64,000 nt of DNA from positions 186,001-250,000 of the forward strand of contig CAMFLR010000007.1 of the NCBI GenBank assembly GCA_945957605.1, read 5' to 3'. The stretch comes from an uncultured Isosphaeraceae bacterium. Lineage in GTDB: Bacteria > Planctomycetota > Planctomycetia > Isosphaerales > Isosphaeraceae. The notes beneath the pieces are model-generated. The model saw only the letters and a program-made list of their open reading frames with translations. It ran no database searches and was not told the DNA's origin. This document shows positions 7,939 to 46,800 of this stretch, one piece after another. Made by a program: the position numbers and the translations under genes. Position 1 is the first letter of the stretch. Each line of letters opens with the position of its first letter.

Positions 7939-10900
7939 TCATTGAAACGGATTTGCGCCGAGCGAGCGTCCCTTCGACTTGCCGACGAGATACGTATCAG
8001 TCGAGTCGACGCCGCCGTCGCCATTGAGATCGCCGGTCACAGCAAGTCCCGATTGCCCTTGTTGTTGCGCGACGAGGCTCATGTCGGTCTGGTCGACAGT
8101 GCCGTCGCCGTTAGTATCACCGAGCAGGCGCTCGAACGAGCTGTGTGGGCTTGTGGTGCTAAACTGCCCCGAACTCGTCAAGTCGAGGTACACGCCGTAC
8201 CAGCCATCGGCGGCAGTCATTGCTTTCCAGTAACTCGCAAGCGTAGCGCTACCACGTGCCACTCCGCCGAGGCCGAGCGCACCGAAGTCGAGTTCGATCA
8301 GGTCGTGCGCGCTGTCGAGTGCGAGCTTCACTCCATTCAAGGAGACGGTTTGATTCGTCGTCGTGCCATAGGCGCGTTCGAGCAGTTGCAACGACAGGCT
8401 CGGGCTCGCGACAAGCGCGTTGTAAAAGTTCGTGAGGGCCGCGCCTCCTTCGTTGAAATCGAGGTCGACAAACTCGACGAACGACCGCTCAGCCGAGCTG
8501 TGCTGGATGGTAACTCCGGTGAAGGCGAGTGCCGCCTGTTGGAATGTGTGCGTCACCGTCACGTCGGCTGCGGCGTGAGTCGCTTCTACGCGACCAGCCG
8601 TATCAGTCGCGACGCTGGAAAACGAGTATGTGTGCGTGAGACCGTCGGCGTTGCCCTGGTAAACGAAGCTCGACTGGTAAACGCCGCTGTTAGGAACTCC
8701 GGCGACGAGTGTTTGGACGAGGATGGGAGTGCCGCCGTCGACCGAGAGGTAAACTGCAAAACTCGCGATCCCCGGGCCATACGCGTCGGTTCCCGTGACC
8801 GTCACGGCGAATGTCGCGTTCGAGGGGGCGGAGCCATCGTTGGGAGTCGCCGACTGAACGTGACTGGTCGGAGCCGGTATCGCGACATAGGTCGCTGCAT
8901 CGACTGTGGTCTTCGTTTCGACGTTACCCGCGGCGTCGGTTGCAATGCTGCGGAAGTAATAGTGGTGCCCGGGAGTCGCCTGGTAGGTGAAGTTCAAATT
9001 CGTCGGTGAAAGAGTGGCGATTGGCATTGCTGCGAACGACCCACCATCGATGGCGACATACACCGCAACCGATGCAATCCCTGGGGCGCTGGGGCCTGTT
9101 TGCGAGGCGGTGACAGATCCGGAAACGAGACCACTTGGTGAGGTGGTGAGCGGAGAGTTCACCTGACTCACGGGGGCGCCGTAGACGTCGACTCCGCTCG
9201 TTCCTTGCGACGGTTGATCGTTCGAATCACCGCGGTACACTGCTTCGATCGAGTGCGACCCTACGGGGAGCAGTACGTTGGGAATCACGGCCACGCCGCC
9301 GACGAGCGTCGCACCGCCTAAATCGGTGCCGTTGTCGAAGAATTCGACTGTGCCGGTCGCGGTGGAAGGACTCACGGTCGCGTTGACGGTAACGGGATGC
9401 CCCGAGAGGATCGCTCCGGATGGGCTGATGCTGACCGCCGTCGACGTGGTGGCTGCTGCTGACACGAGGCTGCCGCCTGACTCAATATTCAGCGACCCAT
9501 GATTGACGAAAGTCGAGCCGACTTCGTTGATGATTTTCCCTGCAAGGCCGACAACTCCGCTGGGATCGATAGTGATGTTCCCAAAATTATCCAGCAACGA
9601 ACCATTGGCCAGCTCGGCGGAGCCGTCGATCGTGAGCAGCCCTCCTGCTGTGATGGCGCAGGCCGTCTGACTGTTGAAAGTCGCGCCGGATTCGATGGTA
9701 ACCGTTCCTTCGTCTGTCAACTGACCGTTGGCGCCTTCCTCGAAGGAGCCGCTGATATCCAGTATTGCGCCAGGTTCCACCGTGATCGAATCGGTGTCGG
9801 ACAGCGTGAACATGAATGCTCTTCCGTGATTGTCGAACGCGGCGCCTGCGCCGATTGTCAGTGCGCCGGGCCCGCCAATGACATCACTTGCACCCACGTA
9901 CAACTGTGCGTCCTTACCGACGACGTTCAGCGTGCCGTTGATGTTCAGTTGGTTGTAGGGAGAGCTGTAGGCGGTCTGCGCCTGGATGACGCCGGCGCTG
10001 GTAGCATTGCCGCCGACGGTGAGTATGCCGCCATTTTTCAGGGTGACGCTCGAGTTTGCTTCGACATTCCATGCGCCGTTGTTGGTGAATTCGCCGTAGA
10101 CGCCCAAACTGCTGCCAGACGTATTCTTCCAGGCAGCTCCAGCGTCACCGGTTACCTGGGCACCATGTTGCACGGCGAGCGAACCGCTAACCGTAGTGGT
10201 TGCTCCGCTTGCGTCGGTCATGACCGATTGACCGTTCATCTGCCAGTTTCCTCCGCTGGCCACGGTCAACGAACCCGAGTTTGAAACCGAGCTACCATCA
10301 GCTTGCGTCGTTGTCGAATTTACCCCCGCAGTCAGGCTTCCACCAGAAGCAATACTCACCGTGCCGTTGATGTTGGTCTGGCTGTTAGCACCTTCGGTGC
10401 ACTGGGCGTTCGTCTGGATAATCAGAGCGCCGGCGGTTGCCACGTTCAGGGTGGCATCCGCATTGCAGGAGCCACCGCTCTCCAGGTCCATCTGTCCGTT
10501 CAGGTTCAGATAACCCAGGATATCAATATCACCCGCGATGAACGCGCTGGTGCCACTTTCGATGGTAGCATCACCGCCCGCTTCGACTTCGACCGAGCCA
10601 TCCTTCGTGACGGTGGCGTTCGCATTCAGGTCGAGGTTGCCCAGGACGGACAACTTCCCATTCTGGAGATTAAGGCCGTCGTTGAGCGTATCACCGGTCC
10701 CCACCGTCAAATCGGCGCCGTCGTCGATGTTCGTATCGCCCGCGACGGTCGCCGAAGTGTCGAGCTCGGGCGAGCCTCCATCGAACGAAAAGTCGCCACT
10801 AACGTTGATGGGATCTCCTGAGAACGCGTAACTGCCAGCGACCGAGATCGATTTAAAGGTGTATCCCAGGTCATTGTTATTGCTGAGCTGCTGGGCTCCG

Positions 10901-12060
10901 GCTGGGAAAACCAACGGATCGTCGGCCTGGGGAACGGCATCGTCTAACCAGTTCGCAGGGTTGCTCCAAAGATTGTTTGCCCCCGTTCCGGTCCATTGTT
11001 CGATCCATGGAAGCGCGACAATCTTGCTCGGATCGGCCGGCGTGACCACGTTGGCAACGTCGGCGACGGCGAGCAAATACTTCGCGCCCTGGGGCCGGCT
11101 CGTGAAGTAGGACGACGGGAAGGTGTAGTTGATGGATTCCTGATTTGTGCCTGTCGCAAACTCGATGATCGGTCCGCCGATCGCAGTATCGGGAGTCGTT
11201 CCGGAAGCCCAGTAGAGATCAATCGGCGCAGCGACCGGGAGGTCGGCATTAGCGATGGTATAGCCCAAGTCTACCGCCCCCGGCGACACTGTGTCATAAG
11301 CGAGGGACGGAGTGACGGACGGCGCATACAGGTCGAGTTCCCAATTGAGATTGCCGGCCATTTCCGTGTCCGCACTTCCCGCTTCGCCGGGGCCAAACTC
11401 GAGACCGTAGTCGGCGTTGTAGTAGAACGAATACTGAACCCCGGCCACGATCGGCATGGTGTAAGTGTCTGCGCCGGCGCCTTGCTGGATTATCGTCTGT
11501 TGAAGAGGGAGACCGTCTGGGCCGCCCTGGGTGGACACGGTGATGCTCACCGCGTAGAAGCTGCGACCGTTGATCGTGGTCGGGATGCCCTTGGAGGCAA
11601 GAACGTACTGGAGGCTGAACAGACCGTTGTCCGGTGCTGTGAACTCCATACCCCAGCTCGTACTTTCATCGGTACCGACAAGATCGTTGCCGTCGGGTGC
11701 ATTACCGCGTGAACTGGCAGATTGGATATCGTCGAAAGTAACGATCCCTGTTTGAACACCCCCAGCCGTTTCGGGATTGACGCTTGCGGTCTGTGAGACC
11801 GAGAAGCTATCCGAGCCATCTTCAGCGCCACCCCCGTGCGCGAACGAGGCGGAGAAGGGTTTCGGCGTCGTTACCTGGCTCTGCTGGCTGATGCTCTTGA
11901 ATTCCTTCGGCAACGAGTAGTCGGATGCCGTCACTTCATTGTCGAAGGCGGTAAAGACGGTGAGCAACTGTCGTGACTCGAGCAGTTCGAGCGGGAGCGC
12001 TCTGCCGTGTCGGAGCCTTCTCTTGCGCTTGGCCGTCTCTACCTTCACGCTTCGCAACAT
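7939..12060 (-). CDS. Large LEPR-XLL surface protein with beta-strand repeats, Ig-like domain and dockerin-like C-terminus
   Basis: A 1373-residue secreted protein. Residues 15-35 carry a basic stretch and the planctomycete motif ELLESRQLLT (LEPR-XLL class). The first 400 residues are beta-rich, with FDDIQSASSRGNAPDG. Residues about 400-880 are a long array of short strands of the form GSLTVASGGNW and GTVTIESGATF, resembling autotransporter-associated beta-strand repeats and probably forming a beta-helix. An Ig-like segment follows at about 890-980 (TGTVEFFDNGTDLGG), then two similar sandwich repeats. The last 60 residues hold two EF-hand-like calcium loops, GDTNGDGTVDQTD and GDLNGDGGVDSTD, as in type I dockerins. 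ATG 12060 has AAGGATC upstream. It is divergent from the LuxR-type gene by about 150 bp, so they may share regulation. The role is presumably adhesion or matrix; no enzyme motif seen. Confidence 0.88.
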   Translation of the reverse strand: MLRSVKVETAKRKRRLRHGRALPLELLESRQLLTVFTAFDNEVTASDYSLPKEFKSISQQSQVTTPKPFSASFAHGGGAEDGSDSFSVSQTASVNPETAGGVQTGIVTFDDIQSASSRGNAPDGNDLVGTDESTSWGMEFTAPDNGLFSLQYVLASKGIPTTINGRSFYAVSITVSTQGGPDGLPLQQTIIQQGAGADTYTMPIVAGVQYSFYYNADYGLEFGPGEAGSADTEMAGNLNWELDLYAPSVTPSLAYDTVSPGAVDLGYTIANADLPVAAPIDLYWASGTTPDTAIGGPIIEFATGTNQESINYTFPSSYFTSRPQGAKYLLAVADVANVVTPADPSKIVALPWIEQWTGTGANNLWSNPANWLDDAVPQADDPLVFPAGAQQLSNNNDLGYTFKSISVAGSYAFSGDPINVSGDFSFDGGSPELDTSATVAGDTNIDDGADLTVGTGDTLNDGLNLQNGKLSVLGNLDLNANATVTKDGSVEVEAGGDATIESGTSAFIAGDIDILGYLNLNGQMDLESGGSCNADATLNVATAGALIIQTNAQCTEGANSQTNINGTVSIASGGSLTAGVNSTTTQADGSSVSNSGSLTVASGGNWQMNGQSVMTDASGATTTVSGSLAVQHGAQVTGDAGAAWKNTSGSSLGVYGEFTNNGAWNVEANSSVTLKNGGILTVGGNATSAGVIQAQTAYSSPYNQLNINGTLNVVGKDAQLYVGASDVIGGPGALTIGAGAAFDNHGRAFMFTLSDTDSITVEPGAILDISGSFEEGANGQLTDEGTVTIESGATFNSQTACAITAGGLLTIDGSAELANGSLLDNFGNITIDPSGVVGLAGKIINEVGSTFVNHGSLNIESGGSLVSAAATTSTAVSISPSGAILSGHPVTVNATVSPSTATGTVEFFDNGTDLGGATLVGGVAVIPNVLLPVGSHSIEAVYRGDSNDQPSQGTSGVDVYGAPVSQVNSPLTTSPSGLVSGSVTASQTGPSAPGIASVAVYVAIDGGSFAAMPIATLSPTNLNFTYQATPGHHYYFRSIATDAAGNVETKTTVDAATYVAIPAPTSHVQSATPNDGSAPSNATFAVTVTGTDAYGPGIASFAVYLSVDGGTPILVQTLVAGVPNSGVYQSSFVYQGNADGLTHTYSFSSVATDTAGRVEATHAAADVTVTHTFQQAALAFTGVTIQHSSAERSFVEFVDLDFNEGGAALTNFYNALVASPSLSLQLLERAYGTTTNQTVSLNGVKLALDSAHDLIELDFGALGLGGVARGSATLASYWKAMTAADGWYGVYLDLTSSGQFSTTSPHSSFERLLGDTNGDGTVDQTDMSLVAQQQGQSGLAVTGDLNGDGGVDSTDTYLVGKSKGRSLGANPFQ

Positions 12061-12209: not shown

Positions 12210-13043
12210 ATGTGGGGCAATATGTCCAAGTCGGGACAACTTCGGTCGCGTGACGTGCGCGACTTGTTTCAGGTCGTCGGCGAATGCCGTGAATTGGGCG
12301 ATGACCGTGCCGCTTGGCGGTCGCATCTGATCGGGCGACTCGCCACCCTGACAGGTGCGGATGCTGGTCTCAAAGGCGAGATGGCCGACTGCCGTTCAGG
12401 GAAGAACACCGACCTGGGTGTCATCATCTGGGCGCCCGAGGGCTTTAAGCCGCCAGCCTACTGGTCGGAACATCTGGCACGATTTCGGGAAAATCCAGGT
12501 TATTCGCCAGCGCTCTCAACGTATCATCACTTAACGCGTACTGACCCTGGACGAGCCTTGTCGCGGGAAGACTTCATTGCCGATCGCGATTGGTACGGTT
12601 CGCACGACTTCTTGAAGATCAACGAGCCGCTTGGTGTCGACGCGATTATTTGGTGCTTCCGGCCGATCCTTTCTACAGCGGCCGACGAGAATACCGGGGT
12701 CATCCTCGCTCGCAACAAAGGACGGCGCGACTTTTCGAAGAGGGATCGGGCGATTGTACGCGAAGCTCATGCCGTGATTTCAACTCTTGTGGGAGGCGCG
12801 CTGGCGCGGTTTGCCGAGCCATCTCCCACAGATCTTTCGCCTCGCGCCCGACAGGTGCTCGCGTGCATACTCGAAGGGGACGGCGACAAGCAGATCGCTA
12901 CACGGCTCGGCCTCAGCACCAACACCGTGAACCATTATGCGAAGGCAATTTTCCGACATTTTGGAGTTCAAAGCCGACCCGAGTTGCTCGCTCGCTGGAT
13001 CAGGCGAGGCTGGTGCAAGAGCTTCCCCTGGGCTCATCAATAG
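12210..13043 (+). CDS. LuxR-family helix-turn-helix transcriptional regulator
   Basis: A 277-residue regulator. The last 65 residues are a LuxR-type DNA-binding domain: LSPRARQVLACILEGDGDKQ leads into IATRLGLSTNTVNHYAKAIF, with the typical recognition helix and a following FGVQSRPELLARW. Residues 1-200 form an uncharacterised sensor-like region with GAF-like features, including DWYGSHDFLKIN and ARNKGRRDFSKRDRAIVREA, which occur in other regulators of this architecture. ATG 12222 is an alternative start; neither has a strong ribosome binding site. The gene is divergent from the large surface protein gene and 168 bp upstream of the giant kinase gene on the same strand, so it could control either or both. 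Ligand unknown. Confidence 0.85.
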   Translation: MWGNMSKSGQLRSRDVRDLFQVVGECRELGDDRAAWRSHLIGRLATLTGADAGLKGEMADCRSGKNTDLGVIIWAPEGFKPPAYWSEHLARFRENPGYSPALSTYHHLTRTDPGRALSREDFIADRDWYGSHDFLKINEPLGVDAIIWCFRPILSTAADENTGVILARNKGRRDFSKRDRAIVREAHAVISTLVGGALARFAEPSPTDLSPRARQVLACILEGDGDKQIATRLGLSTNTVNHYAKAIFRHFGVQSRPELLARWIRRGWCKSFPWAHQ

Positions 13044-13211: not shown

Positions 13212-16200
13212 ATGACTTGGACAGCGGCCGACCGCGATCAGTTGCTCTGCTTGCTCGCTCTCAAGAATGGCTTGATCGATCACAAGGTTCTGGCGACGTC
13301 GATGTTTGATTCTGGGTCGCTCGATGGTGAGTCGCTGCTCGACGCGGTTGTGAGGCGGAGCGGTTTGAGTCGGGACGTGTTCACGACGTTAAGTTTTATC
13401 GCAGAATCGATCGTCTCGGAGTATCCCGACTCGCCACGTGAATATCTCGCGGCACTCGCCGACTCGATCGAGGGAACCCGGCAGCCTGACGCGACAGGGT
13501 CGTTCCGGCCTCAGGCGGAAAATCATGGCGACGATTTCGCCACCCGCGTTCCTTCGCCTGCAGACTTCGCGGAAACGCAAAATCGCGGCGAAGACGCACA
13601 AGGCACCGACGGAGAAATAGAGGTTCACTGGCGTGAGCATCGATTTACGCGATTGCGTCCGCATGCCAAGGGAGGGCTAGGAGAGGTTTTCGTGGCGATG
13701 GATCGCGAGCTCGATCGCGAGGTGGCGCTCAAGGAAATTCAGGACCATCACGCCGATCGATCAGATAGCCGCGCACGATTCTTTCAAGAGGCGAAAGTCA
13801 CCGGAGCGCTCGAACATCCTGGAATTGTTCCGGTTTATGGTCTCGGCCACTATGCGGACGGCCGGCCCTACTACGCGATGCGCTTCATCCGTGGCAAGAG
13901 TCTTAAAGAATCGATCCAGGAGTACCATACCGAACCGAATTTGAGGAGTTCAACCGCCGATCGGCTGATGCTCCAGCAACTGTTGCGGCGGTTCCTCGAC
14001 GTCTGCAACGCAATTTCTTTTGCACACAGCAAGGGTGTTTTACATCGCGACTTGAAGCCGGCGAACGTGATGCTCGGCCAGTTTGGCGAGACCCTGGTCG
14101 TCGATTGGGGCCTGGCGAAAGTGAAGGGCGTTGCGGACCAGACGGATGAGGCGAGTCGAGATGGCGGAGGTGCTGGCCGAATTAGCGGATCGCTGTCGGG
14201 CAGCTCGGCTGAGACATTGCCGGGATCGGCCATGGGAACGCCGCAATTCATGAGCCCCGAGCAAGCCCAGGGCGATCTCGACAGCCTTGGGGCGGCGAGC
14301 GACGTCTATAGCCTGGGCGCGACTCTCTACACGGTTATCACCGGCCACGCACCGTTTGAAGACAAGACGATTGCGGAGGTGCTTGACAAGGTATCCCGAG
14401 GAGAGTTTCCTCGTCCTCGCCAGATATCACGAAAAATCCATCCAGGGCTCGACGCGATTTGCTGCAAGGCAATGGCACTTCATCCCGCAGACCGATATGA
14501 GAGTGTTCAACTGCTGGCGCAAGATATTGAGCATTGGTTGGCCGACGAGCCCGTACTCGCGCAGCGCGAAACATGGTTCAGCCAATCGCACCGCTGGCTA
14601 CGGCGGCACAGAACTTGGGCGCAGGCGATTGCCTCGGCACTCATTCTTGTGACGATCGTCTCGGTCTTCGCCACAATCTTCGTGGGCAAGGAACGCGACG
14701 CGGCCGACGGAGCTCGGGTGCGGGCGATGGAGAATCTCGTCAAGGCCGACCGATCACGCCTTGCGGCAGTGGAAGCCACCAACCAGGCCAAGGCTTCGCA
14801 AAAACAGGCTGAGACCGCGCAAGTCGAAGCGAGCCAGCAAAAGGAAAAGGCGCTTTCACAGCTCTACTTGGCAAGTATGGGGCTGGCTCAGCAAGAGTGG
14901 AACGTCGGCAACGTGGGGCGGGCGGAACAGTTGCTGGATAGTTGCCCTGAGCGGTTTTGGGGTTGGGAACGGCGGTATCTCAAGGCGTTGTGCCATTCGG
15001 ACAGCATGACCTATTCAGGCCAGTCTTCCGTCGCGCGACTGATCGCATTCAGCCCTGATGGCAAGCGAGTCATTTCGGTTGATGCGGCTGGAATACTCAA
15101 AACATGGGACACCGAGACGGGGCGATCACTCTCGTCAAGGATGACGGACAGTCTGGGGCTGGCTTTTGATTCCTCGCGAACCCGCATGGTCGGGATTACG
15201 AACGACCCTAAGGAATACCTTATTTGGGATCTCACAAAAGAGACTTCGCCGACACGGATTGTCATGAATGGTACCCGAGGTGTGGCGGCGGCCTTCCGGC
15301 CTGACGGAAAGCAACTGGCGCTCGTCAAAGATGCAAGCCTTATTCAACTTTGGGATCTGGAAAAAGGGGTGGAATCGTCGATTCTCTCGGGCCGCGCAGA
15401 TCCGCTTGTTTATTTCACATATAGCCCGGATGGAAAGCTTATTGCGGTGGCGCGGCGTTTCGGTTGGATCGAAATCTGGGATCTGGAAACAGGCAAGAGA
15501 CGCCACGAATTTCGAGGGCATCCCGGAGAGGGGATCGAAGTCCAGCGAGTGGAGTTTCGTCCCGATAGTAAGGCGTTGGTTTCGGTCGGGCTCGATGGCG
15601 GCAGAGTTTGGGATGTTGCCGACGCGCACCAGATCGGCAGCCTTCAGGCGAATAGCTCGTTTCTTTATTGTGGGTCGTTCAGTCCCGATGGCAAACGTAT
15701 CGCAACCTCGGGCGCAGACCGCACCGTGCGAGTATGGGACACGACGACATTCCGCGAATTGGCGAATTTTCGAGGCCACACTCATGAGGTCACGCTGGTT
15801 ACCTGGAGTCCAGATGGCACGAAGTTACTTTCATCATCAAATGACACCACGCTGAGGACCTGGGATGTCGGTAATGAGGCAATAACTTCGCCACCATCGG
15901 CGACCGCAGCTTCTTCAAACGCGGGCTCATCAACCGAGCCACGCGTGGCTCCCTTGCGCACGCTGGGCGGGCACACCGGTGCTGTTTCCGCCTTTTCATT
16001 CAGCCCCGATAGCAAGCGGATGGCCACGGTCAGTTGGGATGGATACTTGATCACTCACGACCTGGCGACGGGCGGCATCCTTAAGAAGATTCAGGTCACG
16101 ACGCAGAATGCGCTTTCCAATCAGATTCGCATGCTTCGCGGGGGTACGGCATTTTCAACGAGCGTCGGCGCGGTGGCGTTCAGTCCCGATGGAAAACGCA

Positions 16201-18734
16201 TTGCGACGGGAACGGAAAGCTCGATTTCACCCGCGATCGGCTTTGTTCGCATATTCGATAGCGATACGGGAGAAAATCTCAAAACTTTCAAAGACGATAT
16301 GAGAGGCCCCATTGCTTGCCTGGTATACAGTCCCGACGGTAAGCGGCTGCTCGTTGGAACGGGAGGAGTTCATCCCAGGTTTCGTGGCATCAAGCAGACT
16401 TGTGCAGTCATTGATGCGGAGGATGGCAAGGTCATCGCCAGTTATGATGGGCACAGTCAATCGCTCTTTGATGGCTGCTTGAGTCCGGATGGTAAGCTCG
16501 CCGCGACTGTTGCGTTCGATGGCGGAGTGCATGTTTGGGATACAACCACGGGCGCCAAGAAGATGATACTGCGCCCAGCGGATGAGGCAGATACCGTCTT
16601 TCGCGGGGTTGCATGGAGTCTCGATGGCAAGACGATTGCCGCCACTGGCCTCGACCAGAGTGTTTGGCTTTTCGACGTATCAACGCAAAAAGAAACTCGC
16701 AAACTCAAGGGGCACGCGGGTGAGGTTTATCGCGCCGCGTTTACTCCCGATGGCCAACGTCTGGCGACAACCGGCCGCGATGCAACGGTTAAGCTCTGGA
16801 ACGTCGCTACGGGAGACGAAGTGCTCAGTTTTCGCGAGCACACGAGTGAAATTTACGACTTGGCGTTCAGTCCTGATGGGCAGACCCTCGCCTCTGCGGG
16901 ATTCGATCAAAAAACGATACTGCGATCGATCAATTTTCCCGATTATCCCAAAACCGATGGATGGGACGTGGTTTTGTCCGACGATTTTGAACGCCAAGAC
17001 TTGGGTGATCGCTGGGATGTTGTCTGCGGCGACTGGTCGATCGAGAAGGGGGCTGCAAAAGGGGCGATGCACGTGTCACGTCGCGACCGTCATCCCTTTG
17101 ACTGGGCGACGCTCGTTCCCAAGGGACTCTATCTGCCCTCGCAAGCCGAAGTTCGCTGTGAAGTTTGGTCGCCCGACGCGATTAACGTCGAATTGAAGTT
17201 GCATGAAAGCTCCAGTCTGTTGGCGACTGAGGGACTGCTTGGAATTCTCAGTGGAAGTGCAAAACAACGGTACGAGAGCGACCGTGGCTCGACGCTTCTT
17301 ATTGAAGCATCGAATGCGTATCGCAACGTGCTGACGAACCCGCGATTTGTGCTTGAACCTGGAGTTCACCGCAAAGTACGTATGCTCCGCGAGCGGCGCC
17401 GATTTACTGTTTGGATCGACGGCGAGGAGGCGTTATCGGTACCCATCCCAGATCTCATTGTTCCGGTTTTGCATCTGCAAGCGGGATACGGCAAGCCAGG
17501 GGATGTGGTCTATCTCGACAACGTCGAAATACGCCGACCACGTGAAGCGGCACGAGAGCAAAACGCCCTGAAACGTCTGGCGGAACTGACGAACAGCGAG
17601 CCGCTTCTCGCCGATGCTCTGGCGAAGCTTAAAACCGACACGTCGATCGATGGAGCTACGAAAGAACTGGCGCTCGCGATTGGCTCTCGACAGGAGCAGA
17701 GCCCCAATCAGTTGATCAACTTGACGTATCCTGTCGTGATCAAGTCCGGATGCATGCCTGAGGAGTACCAGCTCGCGCTCAAGCGACTGGAGTCGCTCAT
17801 CGCGAAATCGCCCGACTATCGTCAAGCTCGCGAGCAAGAGGGTGCGGCCTTGTACCGGCTCGGTCGATACGACGAGGCCCTCAAAGCTCTTACCGCTGCG
17901 AACGAGCTTCGCATGAAACAGGGGCTGCACCTCGCTCCGGCGCAACCGCTTGTTTTTCGGGCAATGTCTGAGTTTCGCCTTGGGCATCGGCCTGAAGCCG
18001 CGGCATTGCTCGACGAGCTGGGCCTATCATTGGCCGGCCAACCTGGCGTTGCGAGTGCGGTCGTGCTTCGCGACGAGGCAGAAGCGCTGATCGGCTCGAA
18101 AGCCGCGACGGAGCGACAACTGCTTTGCGAGAACATCACGAAAATCGCCCAGGCGATGCACGCCTATCACGAGAAGGAACTCAGATTTCCCAGCTCTGCC
18201 ATATCGAGCACAGAAAATAGGCCACTACTGAGCTGGCGGGTTGCGCTTTTGCCCTATCTCGGTGAGGAAGCCTTGTACAGTCGTTTCAAGCTTGATGAGC
18301 CCTGGGATAGCCCAAGCAATCAGCCGCTGATCAAGGAAATGCCTGCTGTTTATTCGCGGGCAGTCGCTCAACCGAATGCAGGCGGTCTGACTCCATTCCG
18401 CGTTTTCAGCGGTGCCAACACGCTATTCGACGACAAGACTGCGATGAATTTGGCCAAAATTACTGATGGGACGATCAACACGATTCTGGCCGTCGAGTCG
18501 AGCGAAAGCGTGCCCTGGACCAAGCCGGATGAATTGCTCGTGCCCAAGGATGGAAGTCTTCCGAAACTCGGCACAGCAGACGGAAAACGCGCAACGATTG
18601 TACTCGCAAGCGGCACCGTGATCGTTCTTGAATATACCGCGGAAACCGATCGCATTCTTCGACGGATGATCACTCCCAGCGGCGGTGAGAACGTCGATAG
18701 TGCTCCGTTGACGAAATGGCTAAATCATAAGTGA
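13212..18734 (+). CDS. Ser/Thr protein kinase - TM - WD40 - lectin-like - TPR - DUF1559 fusion
   Basis: An 1840-residue multidomain protein. Kinase domain at about 144-450: glycine loop GGLGEVFVA, VALKE lysine, catalytic loop HRDLKPAN near 278, and DWG in place of DFG near 298, a variant seen in planctomycete kinases. A transmembrane helix lies at about 470-490 (AIASALILVTIVSVFATIFV), then a coiled coil rich in Ala, Gln and Lys. About 596-1236 hold 14 WD40-type repeats by my count (recurrent FSPDGKR and VWD), enough for two seven-bladed propellers. About 1250-1440 is a concanavalin-like jelly roll (DDFERQDLGDRWDV, then DNVEIRRP). About 1450-1630 is TPR-like helical. The C-terminus (about 1633-1836) is a DUF1559 domain without its usual prepilin leader (LLSWRVALLPYLGEEALY, DEPWDSPSN). 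The frame is open from 13167 (TTG), but ATG 13212 is the better start. The kinase would be cytoplasmic and the rest exported. Confidence 0.88.
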   Translation: MTWTAADRDQLLCLLALKNGLIDHKVLATSMFDSGSLDGESLLDAVVRRSGLSRDVFTTLSFIAESIVSEYPDSPREYLAALADSIEGTRQPDATGSFRPQAENHGDDFATRVPSPADFAETQNRGEDAQGTDGEIEVHWREHRFTRLRPHAKGGLGEVFVAMDRELDREVALKEIQDHHADRSDSRARFFQEAKVTGALEHPGIVPVYGLGHYADGRPYYAMRFIRGKSLKESIQEYHTEPNLRSSTADRLMLQQLLRRFLDVCNAISFAHSKGVLHRDLKPANVMLGQFGETLVVDWGLAKVKGVADQTDEASRDGGGAGRISGSLSGSSAETLPGSAMGTPQFMSPEQAQGDLDSLGAASDVYSLGATLYTVITGHAPFEDKTIAEVLDKVSRGEFPRPRQISRKIHPGLDAICCKAMALHPADRYESVQLLAQDIEHWLADEPVLAQRETWFSQSHRWLRRHRTWAQAIASALILVTIVSVFATIFVGKERDAADGARVRAMENLVKADRSRLAAVEATNQAKASQKQAETAQVEASQQKEKALSQLYLASMGLAQQEWNVGNVGRAEQLLDSCPERFWGWERRYLKALCHSDSMTYSGQSSVARLIAFSPDGKRVISVDAAGILKTWDTETGRSLSSRMTDSLGLAFDSSRTRMVGITNDPKEYLIWDLTKETSPTRIVMNGTRGVAAAFRPDGKQLALVKDASLIQLWDLEKGVESSILSGRADPLVYFTYSPDGKLIAVARRFGWIEIWDLETGKRRHEFRGHPGEGIEVQRVEFRPDSKALVSVGLDGGRVWDVADAHQIGSLQANSSFLYCGSFSPDGKRIATSGADRTVRVWDTTTFRELANFRGHTHEVTLVTWSPDGTKLLSSSNDTTLRTWDVGNEAITSPPSATAASSNAGSSTEPRVAPLRTLGGHTGAVSAFSFSPDSKRMATVSWDGYLITHDLATGGILKKIQVTTQNALSNQIRMLRGGTAFSTSVGAVAFSPDGKRIATGTESSISPAIGFVRIFDSDTGENLKTFKDDMRGPIACLVYSPDGKRLLVGTGGVHPRFRGIKQTCAVIDAEDGKVIASYDGHSQSLFDGCLSPDGKLAATVAFDGGVHVWDTTTGAKKMILRPADEADTVFRGVAWSLDGKTIAATGLDQSVWLFDVSTQKETRKLKGHAGEVYRAAFTPDGQRLATTGRDATVKLWNVATGDEVLSFREHTSEIYDLAFSPDGQTLASAGFDQKTILRSINFPDYPKTDGWDVVLSDDFERQDLGDRWDVVCGDWSIEKGAAKGAMHVSRRDRHPFDWATLVPKGLYLPSQAEVRCEVWSPDAINVELKLHESSSLLATEGLLGILSGSAKQRYESDRGSTLLIEASNAYRNVLTNPRFVLEPGVHRKVRMLRERRRFTVWIDGEEALSVPIPDLIVPVLHLQAGYGKPGDVVYLDNVEIRRPREAAREQNALKRLAELTNSEPLLADALAKLKTDTSIDGATKELALAIGSRQEQSPNQLINLTYPVVIKSGCMPEEYQLALKRLESLIAKSPDYRQAREQEGAALYRLGRYDEALKALTAANELRMKQGLHLAPAQPLVFRAMSEFRLGHRPEAAALLDELGLSLAGQPGVASAVVLRDEAEALIGSKAATERQLLCENITKIAQAMHAYHEKELRFPSSAISSTENRPLLSWRVALLPYLGEEALYSRFKLDEPWDSPSNQPLIKEMPAVYSRAVAQPNAGGLTPFRVFSGANTLFDDKTAMNLAKITDGTINTILAVESSESVPWTKPDELLVPKDGSLPKLGTADGKRATIVLASGTVIVLEYTAETDRILRRMITPSGGENVDSAPLTKWLNHK

Positions 18735-24742: not shown

Positions 24743-25629
24743 GAGTCTGTCCCATAATAGGGATCAAGCAGATTTCCTGTATGCAAAATCGGTATCAGCT
24801 TCATTGCGGTGCAGTCGATGGAGCATCAACTGGATCATCGCCAGTTTGACGAACGATTCCGACGACAAGACGCTCCTTTCCCTATCCTTGCTCAGACGTC
24901 TGCATCGACCCAGCCATGCGAACGTCCGTTCTACCGTCCAACGGATGGGCAGTTTCACCCAGCCTTCGGATCCCTTAGGACGTCTGACGATCGTGAGATC
25001 CCAATGCGCGTTGTCCTTCACCCACTGATATAGCTGCATATTGTGGTACTTCTGGTCTCCGTACATCTGGACAACCTTGCCCATCGGCTGCCCCTTGAGT
25101 TTGCTGAACAGTTCAGTCGCCGCCGTAGCGTCGTCGACATTGGCGGCGGTTACTAGCACGGCCAGCAGTAAGCCCATGCTGTCGACGACGATATGGCGTT
25201 TCCGCCCATCGACGTTTTTGGCATTGTCGCGGCCTCGCTCCTCGCCGCCAGACGTGGTGTCGACCGACTGACTGTCGACACTTGCGGAGGTTCGAGGATG
25301 GCCTGGTTTCTCGGCCGTTCGAACCTTTCTGCGGAGCATATCGTGAATGGTGTCGAGCGTGCCGTTACTCCGCCAATCGTCGAAGTAACGCCAGACCGTG
25401 CTTTTGGGTGGGAAATCGATCGGCAGATAACGCCACTGGCAGCCGGTTCGGAGGATGTAGAAGACAGCGTTGACGACATCTCGAAGGTGGGTCTTACGAG
25501 GTCGTCCGACGGTGGAAACTGGAACATGCGGCTCGATCAGAGCCCACTGTGCATCGGTGATGTCGCTAGGGTAATGGTGCGTTCTCATGCACCATTTTAC
25601 CTACGTAGACAACCTTATGGGACAGACTC
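24743..25629 (-). mobile_element. IS5-type insertion sequence (887 bp) with 3-bp target duplication
   Basis: Ends are perfect 15-bp inverted repeats: GAGTCTGTCCCATAA at 24743-24757 and TTATGGGACAGACTC at 25615-25629. The trinucleotide TCA lies immediately outside both ends (24740-24742 and 25630-25632). It is a TNA-type duplication, as reported for the IS1031 group of IS5. Removing the element and one TCA restores GTTCCGTCACTCTTCCA, matching the sequence at other repeats of the interrupted gene. It encodes one intact transposase. It is a different family member from the IS at 21864-22779. The exact restoration indicates a recent simple insertion. Confidence 0.93.
24764..25588 (-). CDS. IS5-family transposase
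   Basis: An intact 274-residue transposase filling the IS at 24743-25629. The N-terminus (DITDAQWALIEPHVP) and the GCQWRYLPIDFPPKSTVWRY block are diagnostic of IS5-type DUF4096 transposases. The DDE residues lie in SASVDSQSVDTT (about residue 103), VQMYGDQKYHN (about 175) and RWTVERTFAWLGRCRRLSKD (about 220). This is the only undamaged transposase in the window, so this element may still be mobile. Its orientation is the same as the gene it disrupts. Confidence 0.95.
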   Translation of the reverse strand: MRTHHYPSDITDAQWALIEPHVPVSTVGRPRKTHLRDVVNAVFYILRTGCQWRYLPIDFPPKSTVWRYFDDWRSNGTLDTIHDMLRRKVRTAEKPGHPRTSASVDSQSVDTTSGGEERGRDNAKNVDGRKRHIVVDSMGLLLAVLVTAANVDDATAATELFSKLKGQPMGKVVQMYGDQKYHNMQLYQWVKDNAHWDLTIVRRPKGSEGWVKLPIRWTVERTFAWLGRCRRLSKDRERSVLSSESFVKLAMIQLMLHRLHRNEADTDFAYRKSA

Positions 25630-27137: not shown

Positions 27138-27761
27138 GTGGCGACGAATGATCCCGAGATTGACGCCCTACTTCAGGCGGCCGCCCGGGGTAATGATTCG
27201 GCGTTGCGCGACCTCCTGGCCCGGCATCGACTTCGGCTCCGTCGAATGGTCGCCGTGCGACTCGATAATCGGCTCAGCGCGCGGGTCGATCCCTCGGACA
27301 TCGTTCAGGAGGCGCTCGTCGACGCCGGACGTAAGCTCGTCGACTACGCGAGGGACCAGCCACTCCCTTTCTACTCGTGGCTTCGCCAGATCGCGCAGGA
27401 ACGGATCATCCAAACCCATCGGTATCACCTTCAATCGAAGCGGCGAGAAGTTGGTCGCGAGGTAGCGGTTTCATGCAGGCCGGCTGATGGCTCGACTTAT
27501 CATCTGGCCGATCGCCTGGCAGCTAGCGGGACTAGCCCAAGCGGAAAAGTGATCCGGGACGAGCGGCGAGCGCTGGTGATCGATACGCTGGAGCAAATGG
27601 TCGAGGCAGACCGCGAGGTTCTGGTGATGCGTTATCTCGAAGGAATGTCGTTTGGCGAAATCGCCGAGGTGACAGACGCTACCGAAGGAGCCGTGAAGGT
27701 TCGCCACTTCCGGGCTCTTGGACGGATTCGCGTGATTCTGAGCGATGAATCTCTGGGGTGA
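27138..27761 (+). CDS. ECF RNA polymerase sigma factor (kinase-associated type)
   Basis: A 207-residue ECF sigma factor. Region 2 is seen as ARRGNDSALRDLLARHRLRLR followed by the core-binding DPSDIVQEAL and YSWLRQIAQERIIQTHRYHL. A linker leads to region 4 (DREVLVMRYLEGMSFGEIAE, VTDATEGAVKVRHFRALGRI). The frame is open to TTG 27063, but GTG 27138 has GGAGGAG at 27125-27131 and matches the normal N-terminus, so I chose it. Its stop overlaps the GTG that could start the kinase gene, so the two are co-transcribed. This is one of two sigma/kinase pairs in the window, a pairing known in Planctomycetes as ECF-STK. The kinase is presumed to control the sigma factor in place of a classical membrane anti-sigma factor. 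Confidence 0.92.
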   Translation: MATNDPEIDALLQAAARGNDSALRDLLARHRLRLRRMVAVRLDNRLSARVDPSDIVQEALVDAGRKLVDYARDQPLPFYSWLRQIAQERIIQTHRYHLQSKRREVGREVAVSCRPADGSTYHLADRLAASGTSPSGKVIRDERRALVIDTLEQMVEADREVLVMRYLEGMSFGEIAEVTDATEGAVKVRHFRALGRIRVILSDESLG

Positions 27762-27766
27762 AGACG

Positions 27767-30700
27767 ATGCAGTCGAACGAGGCCGAGGGGCAAGTACCGG
27801 ACGACGACGATCCGATCCTCGTTGAATGGGCCGCGGAGATCGCTGACCGGATCCAGTCTGGCGAGTCGGTCGACCTCTCGGCGTATGCACGCCTCCACCC
27901 GCAACGGGCGGCCGCGCTTCGCGGCATGATCCCGGCGATCGAGATGCTCGCTGGTCTTGGCGTTTCACCCGATCGGAAAGATCGTCCATCCACTCCCGCG
28001 GAGCCGTGCGAAGAGTTGGGCCATCTCGGCGATTTCCGACTCATCCGCCAGGTCGGGCGGGGCGGAATGGGAATCGTCTACGAAGCGGAGCAAGTCTCAC
28101 TTCGTCGTCGCGTCGCGCTGAAGGTCTTGCCGTTCGCGGCCACACTCGATCCCAGGCAGCTTCAGAGGTTTCAACTCGAAGCGCACGCCGCGGCCTGCCT
28201 CCACCACACTCATATCGTTCCGATTCACGCCGTCGGAACCGAGCGCGGTGTGCCGTTTTATGCGATGCAATTCATCGACGGGCAGAGTCTCGCCGAGTTG
28301 ATCGACGATCTGCGACGCCTCGAAGGCCGAGAACCAGTCTTGGCATCAACCCAGGATGCGGCCGAAGGGAAGCCCGCGAGTAGCACCACGTCTGGCGCAA
28401 CGCGGAAGGTGGAAATCGGGTCGGGCTCGGTGACTCGTGGCCGCGCCCACGTCCGCAATGCAGCAAGGCTTGCCCTGGAAACCGCTGAGGCACTCGATCA
28501 TGCCCATACGCGCGGCATCCTCCACCGCGACATCAAGCCCGGCAACTTGCTAATCGACACCCAGGGGAGTTTGTGGGTCGCCGATTTCGGGCTGGCGCAG
28601 GTGCAGGGTGACCACGGGCTGACCCTTACTGGCGACATCATGGGCACGCTCCGCTACATGAGCCCCGAGCAGGCTCTTGCCCGCCGAACCGTGATCGATG
28701 CCCGAACTGACATCTACTCGCTCGGCGTGACACTCTATGAACTCCTGACGCTCCGGAACGCCTTCGACGGAAAGGACCGCGCTGAGATCTTACGGAAGAT
28801 CGCCCAGGACGAACCTACGCCGCTTCGTGCGCTCAACCCCTCAGTTCCAGTCGACCTGGAAACGATTGTCACGAAGGCAATATCCAAGGCGCCGGCCGAT
28901 CGTTACTCGACCGCGAACGATTTCGCCGAAGACCTCCGGCGGTTCCTCGACTCGCGACCGATCGTTGCTCGGCGTCCCAGCTTGCTGGACCGGGCGACGA
29001 AGTGGGCGGTCCGTCACCGTACAGCTACCGTCGGCGCCGCCGTGGTGGTTGCGACAATCCTGCTCGTCACGACAACGGCTGCCGTGATTGTGGCCTCCAA
29101 GGAGCACGAACGCGGGCAGGCGGCCGTCGCGGTCGGGGACCTTCAGACGCGGTTGCGCCTTCAGGCCGAAGAACAAGCAGAGCAGGGGAGGCATCGCCAG
29201 GCCCGGCTCAACGTAGATCAAGGCGTCCGCTTGATGGAGGACGGTGATCTGCCCGGAGCACATCGCCACTTTGTCGAGGCGCTTCGGCTCGACGAAGGAG
29301 ACGCGGAAAAGGTCGCCGATCATCGGCTACGGCTTGGGATGCTCCTTTCTCAGTGCGCGAAACCGACATGGATATGGTTCCAGGACCAACCGATCGACGC
29401 CGTTGCACTTCGACCCGATGGCCGCGCCGCGGCCGTGGCGCTTCGCGACGGCACCATTACGGTCTACGACGCAATCAGCGGGCGGCCCCTTGGTCCCTCC
29501 TTCGTCCAGCAGGCTCCGATTGGCACCATCGAATTTAGCCCCGACGGAAAGCGGATTGCCGTGGCTCGCGGCGATCAAGAAGTCCGGGTTCTCGACGTGG
29601 CAAGCGGCCGGGAAAGTTTCCCTCCGCTCGTCCACTCTGAGCGGGTGTATGAGCTCGATTTCAGCCCCGACGGAAAGCTCCTGCTCACCACACTCCGAAC
29701 CCGACGCCCTGACTACCCAACGTGGCGCGTCTGGGACGCCGAGACGGGCCTTCCCGTCACCGATTGGATGACGTCCGATTTTGCCGTGTCTGCACATTTT
29801 AGCCCCGACAGTAAGTTGGTAGCCGTCCCCAACGGCCACAATTTGCTGATCTACGACGCGCGGAGTGGACGCCAGGTCGCACCGCCGATGCCGCACGGCT
29901 CGACGCCGACGCTCACGACCTACAACAGCTTCAGCCCCGACTCGCGACGGGTCGTGACTGGCTGCGTCGACAATGTTGCACGCGTATGGGACGTGGCCAC
30001 AGGGCAGTTAACCGCCTCGATGCAGCACAAACAATGGGTTCAAGCGTCATTCAGCCCCGACGGCCGCCGCGTGCTTACTTCATGCACAGATGGCACTGCT
30101 CGGGCCTGGGACTCGAAAACGGGCGCGGCAACCTGCGACCCATTGCACCATCCTGGGGTGGTCAAGAACGCCGTCTCCAGTCCCGACGGCACGCTTGTGG
30201 CGACGATCTGCGACGACCATGCAGTTCGCGTCTGGGACGCCGCCACGGGCCGCGCCGTGCTGCCGCCACTCCGGCATCTCGGCACACTTCTCGCAACCCA
30301 GTTCACCGCCGACGGCCGCTACTTGTTCACCGCGAGCGCCGATCGCACAATTCGCTTTTGGGATCTCGCCGCAGCGAGCCCTGCAGGCCCTCGGCTGCTG
30401 GTGCCGGGCCGCGACTTTCGGGCCGCATTCGGCTCGGGAGGCAAGGTCTTGATCACACACGGCGCGGGTGGCACTGCACGAGTCTGGGACGTGGTCAGCG
30501 GCAGGGCTCTCGGTTCGCCGGTCTCCTTCGACGCTCAGTGGCTTCCCCTCGGCCGGGTGAGCCCGGACGGCCGCTCATATGCGATTGTCGGTGGCCAGTC
30601 CGATCATCGATACGCGGCTTGGGTCTGGAACATTGAGACCCGGCAAACAGAGATCGGTCCCCTCGTCGTTGATTTCAAGAAGTCGGCGGGTGACACGAAC

Positions 30701-32431
30701 CGATCTCTGATCGCCTGGAGTTCGGACGGCCGACGGGTCGCCGTCGCGGCCGGGTCGGACGAATTCTTCTCGCCGGCAAACACCGTGGTCCGCATTTGGG
30801 ACGCAAAGACCGGCAGCCCGGTGACCCCCGAACTCAACTACAACGGCGTGGTTTACACCCTCGACTTTAGCCCCGACGTCCGCTCGCTCGTAACAGCTAG
30901 CCGCATGAGCACCGGCAACGACGAGGTCGGAGAGGTCGTGATCGTCGACGTCGAGACCGGCGCGCGCAAAGGTAGTCCAATCCGTACCTCGACCGCATGC
31001 ACGATCGCTCGGTTCAGCCCCGACGGCCAACGGCTACTCGTCGTGAGTGAAGGAGTGCGCGACGTCAACGGAAGCGATATTCGCATCCTGGACGCCGTCT
31101 CCGGCCGACCGCTTACGCCGTCAATTCACCACGAAGCCGTCATCGGAAATGCATTCTTTACACGGGATGGCGGACGGGTCGTGACCACCAGCGATGCCGT
31201 CCGCGTTTGGGACGCGGAGACGGGAACCCAGTTGGGCTCTCCGATCGAGTTTTCTCTCCCGATCGGACACGCTTCGCTCGATGCCGAAGGTCGGCGGCTT
31301 TTGGTCACTTGCGGCTGGCCAGGCTCTTACGCGATCGACCCCGGTTTCGTGAAAGTGGTGGACCTGGAGACAGGCAACCCTCTCACTCCGCCCCTTTGGC
31401 GCGAGCGATTCGTCCAAGGTGCGGCGTTCAGCCCAGATGGGCGGCGCATAGTCACCACCTGCCTGGAAGGCGGCATCTTGTTTTGGGACCTTTCCCCTGA
31501 TGCCCGCCTGCTTGAGAGCCTGGTCCAAACGGCGGAAGTTCTCTCGGGAACTCGAGTCGACGGCTCGGGCGCTAGCATCCCCATCACGACGGACGAGCTT
31601 CGCGAAGCCTACAACACCCTACGAATCAAAGACCCGAATGCGTTCTCCGCTAGCGATGAGCAGGTCATTGGCTGGCATCACGAGCGGCTACAAGCATGCG
31701 AAGCCGCGCGATCGTACAGCGCCGCGTTGGTGCACATCGACGCCCTCCTGGCAACGGGACAATCGAGCGATTCACTCATAGGTCGCCGGGCGAGAACTCT
31801 CGCTGAGTTGGGGCGGTGGAAGGAGGCGGTTGAGGGGTTCGCGTCGGTGGTTCACTCAGATCCGCGTCGAGCCGTCGATTGGTATTCGCTTGCCTTGGCC
31901 CATCTGGGAGCGGGCGACCGCGATGGCTATCGCGCCACATGCGTGAAAATGCTCGACACCTTCGGTTCGGCCGACCCATCGAGCGACGACATCCTGTACA
32001 CGTTGAAGGCTTGCACGCTGGCAAAGGAGGCGCCCGCCGCCTCGACGATCGCCGCAGACTTTGCCAAACGTGTCAGGATTGCCCGCCCAAATGATCAAGC
32101 TTCCCTCCTCGTGGCTCTAGGTATTCTTCATTACCGCGCAGGGGCCTTTGAAAAGGCTGCCGAGACATTGTCCGAAGCCGATCGACAGGCGGGGACGCTT
32201 AAGTCCGCATCCGTCGACACTTGGTATATCCTCGCGATGGCACACCATCACCTCCGTCACCCCGAAGAATCGAAGAAATGGGCCGACCGGGCTTTGGCGG
32301 CGACAAAGCCAATACTCGATGACGTCGGCCAACTCGGTGGCGACCAGACTGACTGGCGGCGCGGTCTGACGCTACAACTCCTTCGACATGAGCTTGAGTC
32401 CCTGCGAGCTTCCGACACTTCGCGTCACTGA
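27767..32431 (+). CDS. Ser/Thr protein kinase with TM segment, WD40 propellers and TPR-like tail
   Basis: A 1554-residue protein. A short acidic N-terminus of about 85 residues (with YARLHPQRAAALRGMIPAIE) is typical of these kinases. The kinase domain has all core motifs: GRGGMGIVYEA, VALKVLP, HRDIKPGNLL near residue 252, VADFGLA near 272 and SPEQA near 300. A transmembrane helix lies near 420-440 (VGAAVVVATILLVTTTAAVI), then a short Gln/Glu-rich coiled coil. About 540-1245 contain some 16 WD40-like repeats by my count (FSPDGRR, VWDAATG). The last 280 residues are helical and TPR-like. GTG 27758 overlaps the sigma-factor stop; ATG 27767, six bases after GGGGTGA, is the better start. It is the partner of the ECF sigma factor upstream and probably couples an envelope signal, sensed by the propellers, to transcription. 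Confidence 0.92.
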   Translation: MQSNEAEGQVPDDDDPILVEWAAEIADRIQSGESVDLSAYARLHPQRAAALRGMIPAIEMLAGLGVSPDRKDRPSTPAEPCEELGHLGDFRLIRQVGRGGMGIVYEAEQVSLRRRVALKVLPFAATLDPRQLQRFQLEAHAAACLHHTHIVPIHAVGTERGVPFYAMQFIDGQSLAELIDDLRRLEGREPVLASTQDAAEGKPASSTTSGATRKVEIGSGSVTRGRAHVRNAARLALETAEALDHAHTRGILHRDIKPGNLLIDTQGSLWVADFGLAQVQGDHGLTLTGDIMGTLRYMSPEQALARRTVIDARTDIYSLGVTLYELLTLRNAFDGKDRAEILRKIAQDEPTPLRALNPSVPVDLETIVTKAISKAPADRYSTANDFAEDLRRFLDSRPIVARRPSLLDRATKWAVRHRTATVGAAVVVATILLVTTTAAVIVASKEHERGQAAVAVGDLQTRLRLQAEEQAEQGRHRQARLNVDQGVRLMEDGDLPGAHRHFVEALRLDEGDAEKVADHRLRLGMLLSQCAKPTWIWFQDQPIDAVALRPDGRAAAVALRDGTITVYDAISGRPLGPSFVQQAPIGTIEFSPDGKRIAVARGDQEVRVLDVASGRESFPPLVHSERVYELDFSPDGKLLLTTLRTRRPDYPTWRVWDAETGLPVTDWMTSDFAVSAHFSPDSKLVAVPNGHNLLIYDARSGRQVAPPMPHGSTPTLTTYNSFSPDSRRVVTGCVDNVARVWDVATGQLTASMQHKQWVQASFSPDGRRVLTSCTDGTARAWDSKTGAATCDPLHHPGVVKNAVSSPDGTLVATICDDHAVRVWDAATGRAVLPPLRHLGTLLATQFTADGRYLFTASADRTIRFWDLAAASPAGPRLLVPGRDFRAAFGSGGKVLITHGAGGTARVWDVVSGRALGSPVSFDAQWLPLGRVSPDGRSYAIVGGQSDHRYAAWVWNIETRQTEIGPLVVDFKKSAGDTNRSLIAWSSDGRRVAVAAGSDEFFSPANTVVRIWDAKTGSPVTPELNYNGVVYTLDFSPDVRSLVTASRMSTGNDEVGEVVIVDVETGARKGSPIRTSTACTIARFSPDGQRLLVVSEGVRDVNGSDIRILDAVSGRPLTPSIHHEAVIGNAFFTRDGGRVVTTSDAVRVWDAETGTQLGSPIEFSLPIGHASLDAEGRRLLVTCGWPGSYAIDPGFVKVVDLETGNPLTPPLWRERFVQGAAFSPDGRRIVTTCLEGGILFWDLSPDARLLESLVQTAEVLSGTRVDGSGASIPITTDELREAYNTLRIKDPNAFSASDEQVIGWHHERLQACEAARSYSAALVHIDALLATGQSSDSLIGRRARTLAELGRWKEAVEGFASVVHSDPRRAVDWYSLALAHLGAGDRDGYRATCVKMLDTFGSADPSSDDILYTLKACTLAKEAPAASTIAADFAKRVRIARPNDQASLLVALGILHYRAGAFEKAAETLSEADRQAGTLKSASVDTWYILAMAHHHLRHPEESKKWADRALAATKPILDDVGQLGGDQTDWRRGLTLQLLRHELESLRASDTSRH

Positions 32432-43803: not shown

Positions 43804-46800
43804 GTGAAGTTGAAACTCAACTACTGCGAGGGATTGGAATTGCTGCCTGCGGACGAACCTCCCACAGACCGGCCATCAGGCAATATTGCCATTGATTCGG
43901 CTTCGACGGCCGCAAGCGGATCTCCCGCGAAGAGCGATGACGCTCAGGGCGTCGCGTGCGATCTCGATCGAACTCAAGACGTCACGGTAGACGTGAAGCC
44001 TTCAGCCTCGTCCGTTCCCGACACTTTATCACTCCCCAATGCGTTCGGCCGTTACGAGGTGCGCCGATTGCTGGGTGTCGGCGGATTTGGGGCGGTTTAT
44101 CTTGGCCACGACACGCAGCTCGATCGACCGGTTGCGATCAAAGTTCTGCGTGATGAGGCTGATGTGCGGCTCGGCCAGGCGGAGCAACTCCTGCATGAAG
44201 CTCGCCGGCTGGCGCGGCTGAATAACCGCGGCATCGTCACCGTCCACGACGTTGGTCGGGACGACGGGCAAATCTATATCGTATCCGAATTTCTTGAAGG
44301 GCCGAGCCTCTCGCAGTGGCTCAAAGGAAACCGCGCGAGTTGGGACGAAGTAGTTCGAATCGTGGCCGCAGTGGCCGACGCCCTCGCGCATGCGCACGCC
44401 AGACTGATCGTCCACAGAGACATCAAACCTGCGAACATTATTTTGACGGCCGATCGCGGACCTGTTGTTGTCGACTTCGGACTGGGCCTTGATGAAACGC
44501 GAGCGGGCGGAGGTGAAATTGGTGTCGTGTGCGGCACGATGGCGTACATGGCGCCTGAGCAGTTCGCAGGAAAGGCACATCGAATCGATGGTCGCACCGA
44601 TATTTATAGTTTGGGTGTGATTCTTTATGAGATGATTTGCGGATTGAAGCCATTTCGCGGAGTGGATTCCCAGGAGCTCTTGCGGCAGGTGCGCGACGAC
44701 GAGCCCCAGCCGCCACGTCAAATTCGGCTCGATATCCCTCCTGAACTCGAAAAGGCTTGTTTGAAAGCTCTCGCGAAGGAGATGCGAGACCGTCAGACCA
44801 CCGCCGCGGATTTTGCCGAGGAACTGCGGCGAATTGGCCTTCCTAATTCGCCGCGCACCACACATCAGAACTCACCGTCGCCGATCGTTCCGAAGCCGCC
44901 CGCGCCAGCGGTCTATCCGGCTCCTCGGACTTCAGACGGCCCATCCAGTCGATCGACATCGCCAAGCTCCCTGCCTCGCCGTGAAGCCGAGCGGCGACAG
45001 GTAACAATGCTCATTTGTGGTTGTGAGCTGTTCCGATCGGAAGAGTTTCTTGAAGGACTCGACCCTGAGGATCAAGCCCAGGTCTTGCGGAAATTTCAGC
45101 AGGCGTGCGATCAGGCGCTGCAACCATTCGAGGGTACGGTGGTCCAGTGCAATGAGGATGGCCTGCTGGCCTGCTTTGGTTATCCCGTGGCGCGCGAGGA
45201 CGCTGCTCGACGTGCAGCCCGTGCAGGGCTTGCCATCCTTGATCAAATGAAGACGTTTAGCTCGACATTGCTCCGTGAACGCAAGTTTGAATTGAACGCG
45301 TGGGTTTGCCTTCACATCGGGCCGGCCGTTGTCGAATCAGACGAGAGCAGAGTTACGTTAGTCGGCGAAGCTCGAAACGTGGCGGCGCGACTCGAGGAGT
45401 TTGCCCAGCCGGAAAGAATCGTCGTCACTTCGACCACGCATCGCTTGATCCGAAATGTGCTCAATTGCACAGCTCTTGGCCTTCGTAAGATCAAGGGGAT
45501 GGCGCGGCCGGTCGAACTCTTTGTGATCGAGGGCATCGGCGAGACTCGCAGCCCTGTCGACGTCGAGGCGGCAGCGCTGACGCCGCTTACGGGCCGCGAT
45601 CAGGAGGTCAACCTTCTCAAGGAGCGCTGGGAGCAGGCACGCGAGGGAATGGGGCAGATCGTTCTACTGATCGGCGAAGCCGGCCTGGGCAAGTCGCGTC
45701 TTGTGTACACGATGAAGGAGCACGTGCTGGGGCAGATGATCGAAGGCGAGGTCGACGCTCCGGTCATTGAGTGGCGTTGCGGACCGCACTTTCAGAACAC
45801 CGCGCTCTATCCAGCGATCGATTTCTACGGTCGCGCTCTCTCGTTCGGACCAGAAGAACCGCCGCTCGCCCGATTCGACCGCATGATGCACCGGCTCGAG
45901 GAATACGGCCTGGATCAGCCGGAAAACGTGCCGCTTTGGGCACCGTTGATGTCTCTGCCGATTCCGGAAGGCTATCCAAAACCCTCGCTATCGCCGATCC
46001 GGCAAAAAGAGGAAACGTTTCGGTTTATGATGGAGTGGTTGCGCACCCGCGCTGCGCGCAAGCCAATTCTTTTCGTGATCGAAGACTTGCACTGGGTCGA
46101 TGCGTCGACTCTCGAATTTCTCAGCCAATTTGTGGCAGAAGGGCTGCACGAGTCGATCCTGACGTTGCTGACATTCCGCCCAGAATTTCAGACCCCCTGG
46201 CCAGCGCTTGCGCATCAAACTAGCCTGGCGCTCACGCGGCTTTCACGCCGCCAGTCCGGCGAGTTGATTCAACAGAAGCTGGGCCGTAATGCGCCGCCAG
46301 AGCTAATCGACGAGATTTATAACAGGGCAGGGGGCGTGCCGCTCTTTGTCGAAGAGTTCTCGCGGATGCTGCAGGAAGCGGGCCTTTCCGACTCGTCTCA
46401 AATGGGTGGCAGCAAAAGTAGCAGTAGCAGTCCGCGGAAACTTGCTTCGCTTTCACGCGAAATTCCGAGCACGCTTCAGGACCTCGTGATGGCTCGCCTC
46501 GATCGGATGGAGGGTGAGCGCGATCTTGCACAACTTGCCGCCACGCTGGGGCGTGAGTTCAATTACGACGTTCTCGCGGCTGTTGCCGGTCTTGATGAAT
46601 CAACGCTTCGCGCCGACCTGACGAGGCTCGTCCAGGCCGATATCCTTCATCCCAAGGGCAAGCCGCCACGGTGTACTTATTTATTCAAGCATGCTTTGCT
46701 TGAGGACGCTCTTTACAGCACGATGATCAAGGTCAAGCGGCAGCAGTTTCACAAACGCATCGGCGAGGTGCTGGAAACGCGGTTCCCGCAGACGACACAG

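Follow-up and report, generated by a model that had tools for sequence, protein, structure and literature searches.

A large Ser/Thr kinase of the planctomycete studied here ends in a DUF1559 (SBP_bac_10) module that has no prepilin leader, and leaderless modules of this kind recur at the C-terminal side of other kinases, sigma factors and M56 peptidases. The protein belongs to the already known planctomycete multidomain kinases, to whose plan it adds a jelly roll and a DUF1559 head. On balance we favor reading it as a receptor-type kinase that spans the membrane, with an external arm that would end in a pilin-like head unable to polymerize and probably serving as a binding module. Few paralogous families of Planctomycetes are as large as DUF1559; for Planctopirus limnophila, PMC10632474 gives 68 paralogues, two of them essential. 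Where it is joined to a kinase, sigma factor or protease, the module comes with a measurable output, and the ligand of the head could be traced via kinase activity or transcription. If the favored reading is true, a pilin-like domain is employed apart from the pilus.

Architecture of the 1840-residue kinase

The gene occupies positions 13212..18734 (plus strand) of the window, the whole 64-kb stretch of DNA that was analyzed. Its frame runs from an ATG at 13212, a start that agrees with the N-termini of paralogues, to a stop at 18734, and encodes 1840 aa without an internal stop. Third-position G+C is similar throughout (0.56-0.71 along the frame), with no break in composition at domain borders. 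In order, the frame encodes an N-terminal domain, a Ser/Thr kinase, a predicted transmembrane (TM) helix, a coiled coil, 14 WD40 units, a jelly-roll-like domain, a TPR region and the leaderless DUF1559 module, so that the original prediction of a single protein joining the parts from kinase to DUF1559 in this order holds. Scanning of the protein and its pieces against Pfam placed the kinase, WD40 and DUF1559 above the cut-offs and left the TPR region and the jelly roll, the latter with no Pfam match of its own, below them.

The N-terminal domain (aa 1-140; 13212..13631, plus strand) is similar in the paralogous kinases L003, L005, L007 and L008 and matches no Pfam family. The kinase domain follows at aa 153-435 (13668..14516, plus strand; PF00069, E 1.9e-30) and keeps the motifs VALK, HRDLKPAN, DWGLA and SPEQ; it has DWG where DFG is usual, and the Lys, HRD and DxG motifs by which PknB-like kinases are judged are all in place. 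C-terminal to the kinase lies the only strong hydrophobic helix found by hydropathy, a single predicted TM helix at aa 473-491 (14628..14684, plus strand) whose mean hydropathy of 2.65 is the highest in the protein. This strong hydropathy and the flanking charges fit an N-in/C-out orientation. The arm is placed outside because a kinase needs access to cytoplasmic ATP, and the available text of PMC11032199 likewise describes planctomycete Ser/Thr kinases (STKs) with the kinase predicted to be cytoplasmic and the WD40 or TPR part periplasmic. Intact motifs and one TM-like helix after the kinase thus agree with the membrane-anchored kinase first proposed, and by predicted topology its propellers would be exported. 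A predicted coiled coil, read from the sequence at about aa 500-555 (14709..14876, plus strand), comes after the helix, and the region is similar in L003, L211 and L230.

Two WD40 propellers of seven units each, assigned from Pfam WD40 families and WD motifs, extend over about aa 603-890 (15018..15881, plus strand) and aa 926-1243 (15987..16940, plus strand). Many Pfam WD40 models match above the cut-off across residues 652-1236; the units were counted by motif, 7 + 7, with a Ser/Ala-rich linker between the groups.

The jelly-roll (concanavalin/LamG-like) domain, at about aa 1250-1443 (16959..17540, plus strand), was delimited by homologues in L211, L212, L213, L214, L230, L231 and L234. Its own sequence matches no Pfam family, does not reach the cut-off of the Laminin-G or concanavalin-like profiles, and has no significant homologue among 45 genomes of the same family; nor is the protein among the 28 DUF1080 (PF06439) matches of its genome. 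A class-wide sample of 397 genomes yielded homologues in G348, G130 and G280 (E 1e-36 to 3e-16) and further ones in G437, G566 and G618, occupying the same place in proteins of other families. A profile of five members matched the PDB weakly (galectin-related, E 0.0016; laminin-G peptide LG3, 0.22), one homologue weakly matches Laminin_G_3 (E 0.017), and the AlphaFold2 model from one sequence has a pLDDT of 33. Judged by this conservation of sequence, the jelly roll is a genuine conserved domain, and a lectin-type fold is likely. The lectin domain of the original prediction is upheld in its conservation and weak profile matches, and not in a Pfam match of the sequence itself.

Between the jelly roll and the head lies a TPR region at about aa 1446-1613 (17547..18050, plus strand), with its clearest repeat match at 1518-1602. 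TPR_2 and TPR_16 score below the cut-off, the best match having an E of 4.8e-5, under the curated threshold. Kinases of the same bacterial family have a similar C-terminal region.

The DUF1559 head and the proteins that carry it

The leaderless, pilin-like DUF1559 module (aa 1614-1840; 18051..18731, plus strand) was defined by Pfam, by an AlphaFold2 model and by structure alignment. When the C-terminus was scanned alone, DUF1559/SBP_bac_10 (PF07596) scored 70.7 bits, the cut-off being 23.3, and there was no prepilin leader (GF[TS]LxE-type motif) near the module, in agreement with the claim of a C-terminal DUF1559 without leader. Nor was a hydrophobic first helix found in the head, where hydropathy of the helix region is below 1, insufficient for a membrane. 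All 12 columns that are invariant in an alignment of 74 compact modules are retained. The AlphaFold2 model made with this alignment (pLDDT 90.3, pTM 0.86) consists of a 43-residue helix (3-45) and then an alpha/beta head. Foldseek alone gave no pilin match to the model, and the sequence profile of the module no match in the PDB. VIA-align, applied to the Foldseek candidates (419 chains), found only four that reach Z 2, every one a pseudopilin or type IV pilin: GspG at 4.7, PulG at 3.7 and CofA at 3.1 and 2.9, scores so low that they can reflect mere common arrangement. The model and its alignments support a pilin-like fold, and as modeled the head resembles a pilin minus its assembly segment.

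DUF1559 gave 115 match rows in the genome, corresponding to about 100 loci. In most of these the match covers the complete model and the frame is about 300-450 aa long, in accord with the leader-bearing DUF1559 proteins described in the available text of PMC8567305 as N_methyl plus SBP_bac_10; about a dozen match it partly, and the majority of these are terminal parts of longer frames. A search of the contigs of the genome with the whole C-terminal 605 aa gave no match. The pilin-like proteins of PF07596 have the head in common with our protein, whereas here it lacks the leader and hydrophobic first helix, is of compact form and stands at the end of another protein. The partly matching loci have a compact form in common, marked by the signature SWRVxxLPY...LDEPWDSPHN.

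Kinase-DUF1559 proteins number five, the present one and four others: two adjacent genes of L105 (996-3578 and 3772-6594, in one Planctomycetia MAG), L176 and L183. All four have the kinase, the TM helix and the leaderless DUF1559 in common with it, confirmed by Pfam, but their frames of 804-951 aa contain no WD40, jelly roll or TPR by Pfam. The first L105 kinase ends in a carboxypeptidase-regulatory-like domain, slightly under the cut-off. A further 27 carriers comprise 17 non-redundant ECF sigma factors and 10 M56/BlaR1-type peptidases, assigned by similarity; since kinase, sigma and M56 sequences were part of the query alignment from the start, the sample is biased and the counts are not frequencies. 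Pfam gives the order ECF sigma, hydrophobic segment, DUF1559 for L043 (2-4837), L096 (288-2450), L116 (1916-3616) and L131 (3413-5473). A hydrophobic TM-like segment separates the cytoplasmic part from DUF1559 in 30 of the 32 kinase, sigma factor and M56 carriers (kinases 5/5, ECF sigma factors 15/17, M56 peptidases 10/10), and a prepilin leader was found in none of the 32. The leaderless form, at first regarded as exceptional, is instead a common Planctomycetes variant that recurs on these three classes, and many other proteins that end in DUF1559 have no recognized signaling part. The genome of our protein also encodes an M56/BlaR1 peptidase ending in DUF1559 (L011, 952-3849) and a frame in which a von Willebrand A/YfbK-like region comes after DUF1559 (L012, 1960-3999). 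Two tandem DUF1559 modules occur per frame in L155, L156, L030 and L090.

Relatives and origin of the fusion

Multidomain STKs of planctomycetes (PMC11032199; the Tuwongella kinases of PMC8567305) have, as far as the available text describes them, the same kinase, TM helix and long WD40/TPR arm predicted to lie outside, and the present protein adds the jelly roll and the leaderless DUF1559 head. In that text neither paper mentions a kinase-DUF1559 fusion, and the text available on DUF1559/SBP_bac_10 mentions none with a kinase or sigma factor. The order kinase-TM-WD40-TPR, with a comparable TPR end and no DUF1559, is frequent in the same family, and the protein is therefore best described as this common plan extended by a jelly roll and a DUF1559 head.

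The search for the same architecture in other genomes succeeded in part. L211 (G348), L230 (G437) and L231 (G566), from other planctomycete families of the class, are kinase-TM-WD40-jelly roll-TPR proteins that share the order up to the TPR, but theirs is without DUF1559, and other C-terminal domains, NTF2/PsbP-like by eye, stand in its place. L212 (G130, another family) has a coiled coil, WD40, jelly roll, TPR, an extra region and then DUF1559 in one frame; its contig is cut at both ends, starting before any kinase is visible and ending inside DUF1559. WD40, jelly roll, TPR and DUF1559 thus share a single frame in two assemblies. No second kinase-DUF1559 frame was among the matches listed for the 45 family genomes.

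The five modules linked to kinases stand apart from one another in a tree built from 151 modules, but a single clade was not rejected (AU p 0.82); we therefore do not claim independent fusions from this tree. In the kinase-domain tree, the DUF1559 label has to change three times or more on well-supported branches, losses counting as changes too. This kinase is closest to kinases from its own genome and genus that lack DUF1559. Its origin is most simply read as domain shuffling.

Proposed function and competing explanations

In the receptor reading, the kinase would lie in the cytoplasm, with one TM helix and the coiled coil leading outward to an external arm of ~1300 residues made up of two seven-bladed propellers, the lectin-type jelly roll, the TPR stretch and the DUF1559 head. 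The head would bind an external ligand, polymer or fibre, and external binding would alter dimerization via the coiled coil and hence kinase activity. Export of the arm, the binding role and the dimerization step are what we infer. Since the head is without prepilin leader and hydrophobic first helix, it should not be a normal pilus subunit; lacking what such a subunit requires, it would have binding as its likely role. In a bolder extension, possible but somewhat doubtful, the leaderless head would serve Planctomycetes generally as an external sensor, a pilin-like domain withdrawn from pilus assembly and fused time and again, across the membrane, to a kinase, an ECF sigma factor or an M56 protease; if this is true, one class of extracellular signal would feed three kinds of cytoplasmic output.

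DUF1559 need not be a sensor, because it also ends so many proteins without an obvious signaling part. The tail could be neutral or have a structural role: a mobile module of planctomycetes that was appended to an otherwise ordinary kinase-WD40-TPR protein and senses nothing specific; this is rather unlikely, though the commonness of DUF1559-free family kinases with a similar TPR end, the jelly-roll-bearing relatives L211, L230 and L231 without DUF1559, and the presence of the module on very many unrelated proteins all speak for it. Against it stand the retention in the head of 12 of 12 invariant columns and the repetition, with the same topology, of fusions to signaling proteins. That repetition also weighs on the idea, a sharper form of the original prediction, that the head docks onto DUF1559 pseudopili, capping or touching fibres of the ~100 other DUF1559 proteins while the kinase senses their state: the sigma-factor and M56 fusions would all need to sense the same fibres, and we regard such docking as improbable, even though the modeled fold of the head is pilin-like and the genome encodes, beside the ~100 DUF1559 loci, two prepilin-peptidase-type (A24) genes.

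The two remaining explanations concern the protein itself. Its topology is predicted, and the helix at 473-491 might be unused as a TM segment, leaving the whole protein cytoplasmic; given its strong hydropathy, flanking charges that fit N-in/C-out, and related kinases predicted to be membrane proteins in the available text of PMC11032199, this has very little probability. That assembly or annotation joined two or three genes into one frame would fit the failure to find a second kinase-DUF1559 frame among the matches listed for the family, but is hardly credible when other kinase-DUF1559 frames exist and composition runs on without a break. We rejected it because L212, in an independent genome of another family, carries WD40, jelly roll and TPR and then DUF1559 in one frame.

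Directly upstream of the kinase gene and on the same strand lies a LuxR-type HTH regulator (12210-13043; GerE, E 5.6e-13). The window encodes three further large Ser/Thr kinases, at 27758-32431 (kinase-WD40-TPR, 1557 aa), 43804-48132 (kinase-guanylate cyclase-AAA-TPR, 1442 aa) and 48167-51466 (kinase-WD40, 1099 aa), and an NHL-type propeller-repeat protein of 1314 aa at 52468-56412. The minus strand carries a protein of 1373 aa that combines Ig-like (Big_3_5) with dockerin domains (7939-12060) and an IS4/IS5-type transposase (24764-25588).
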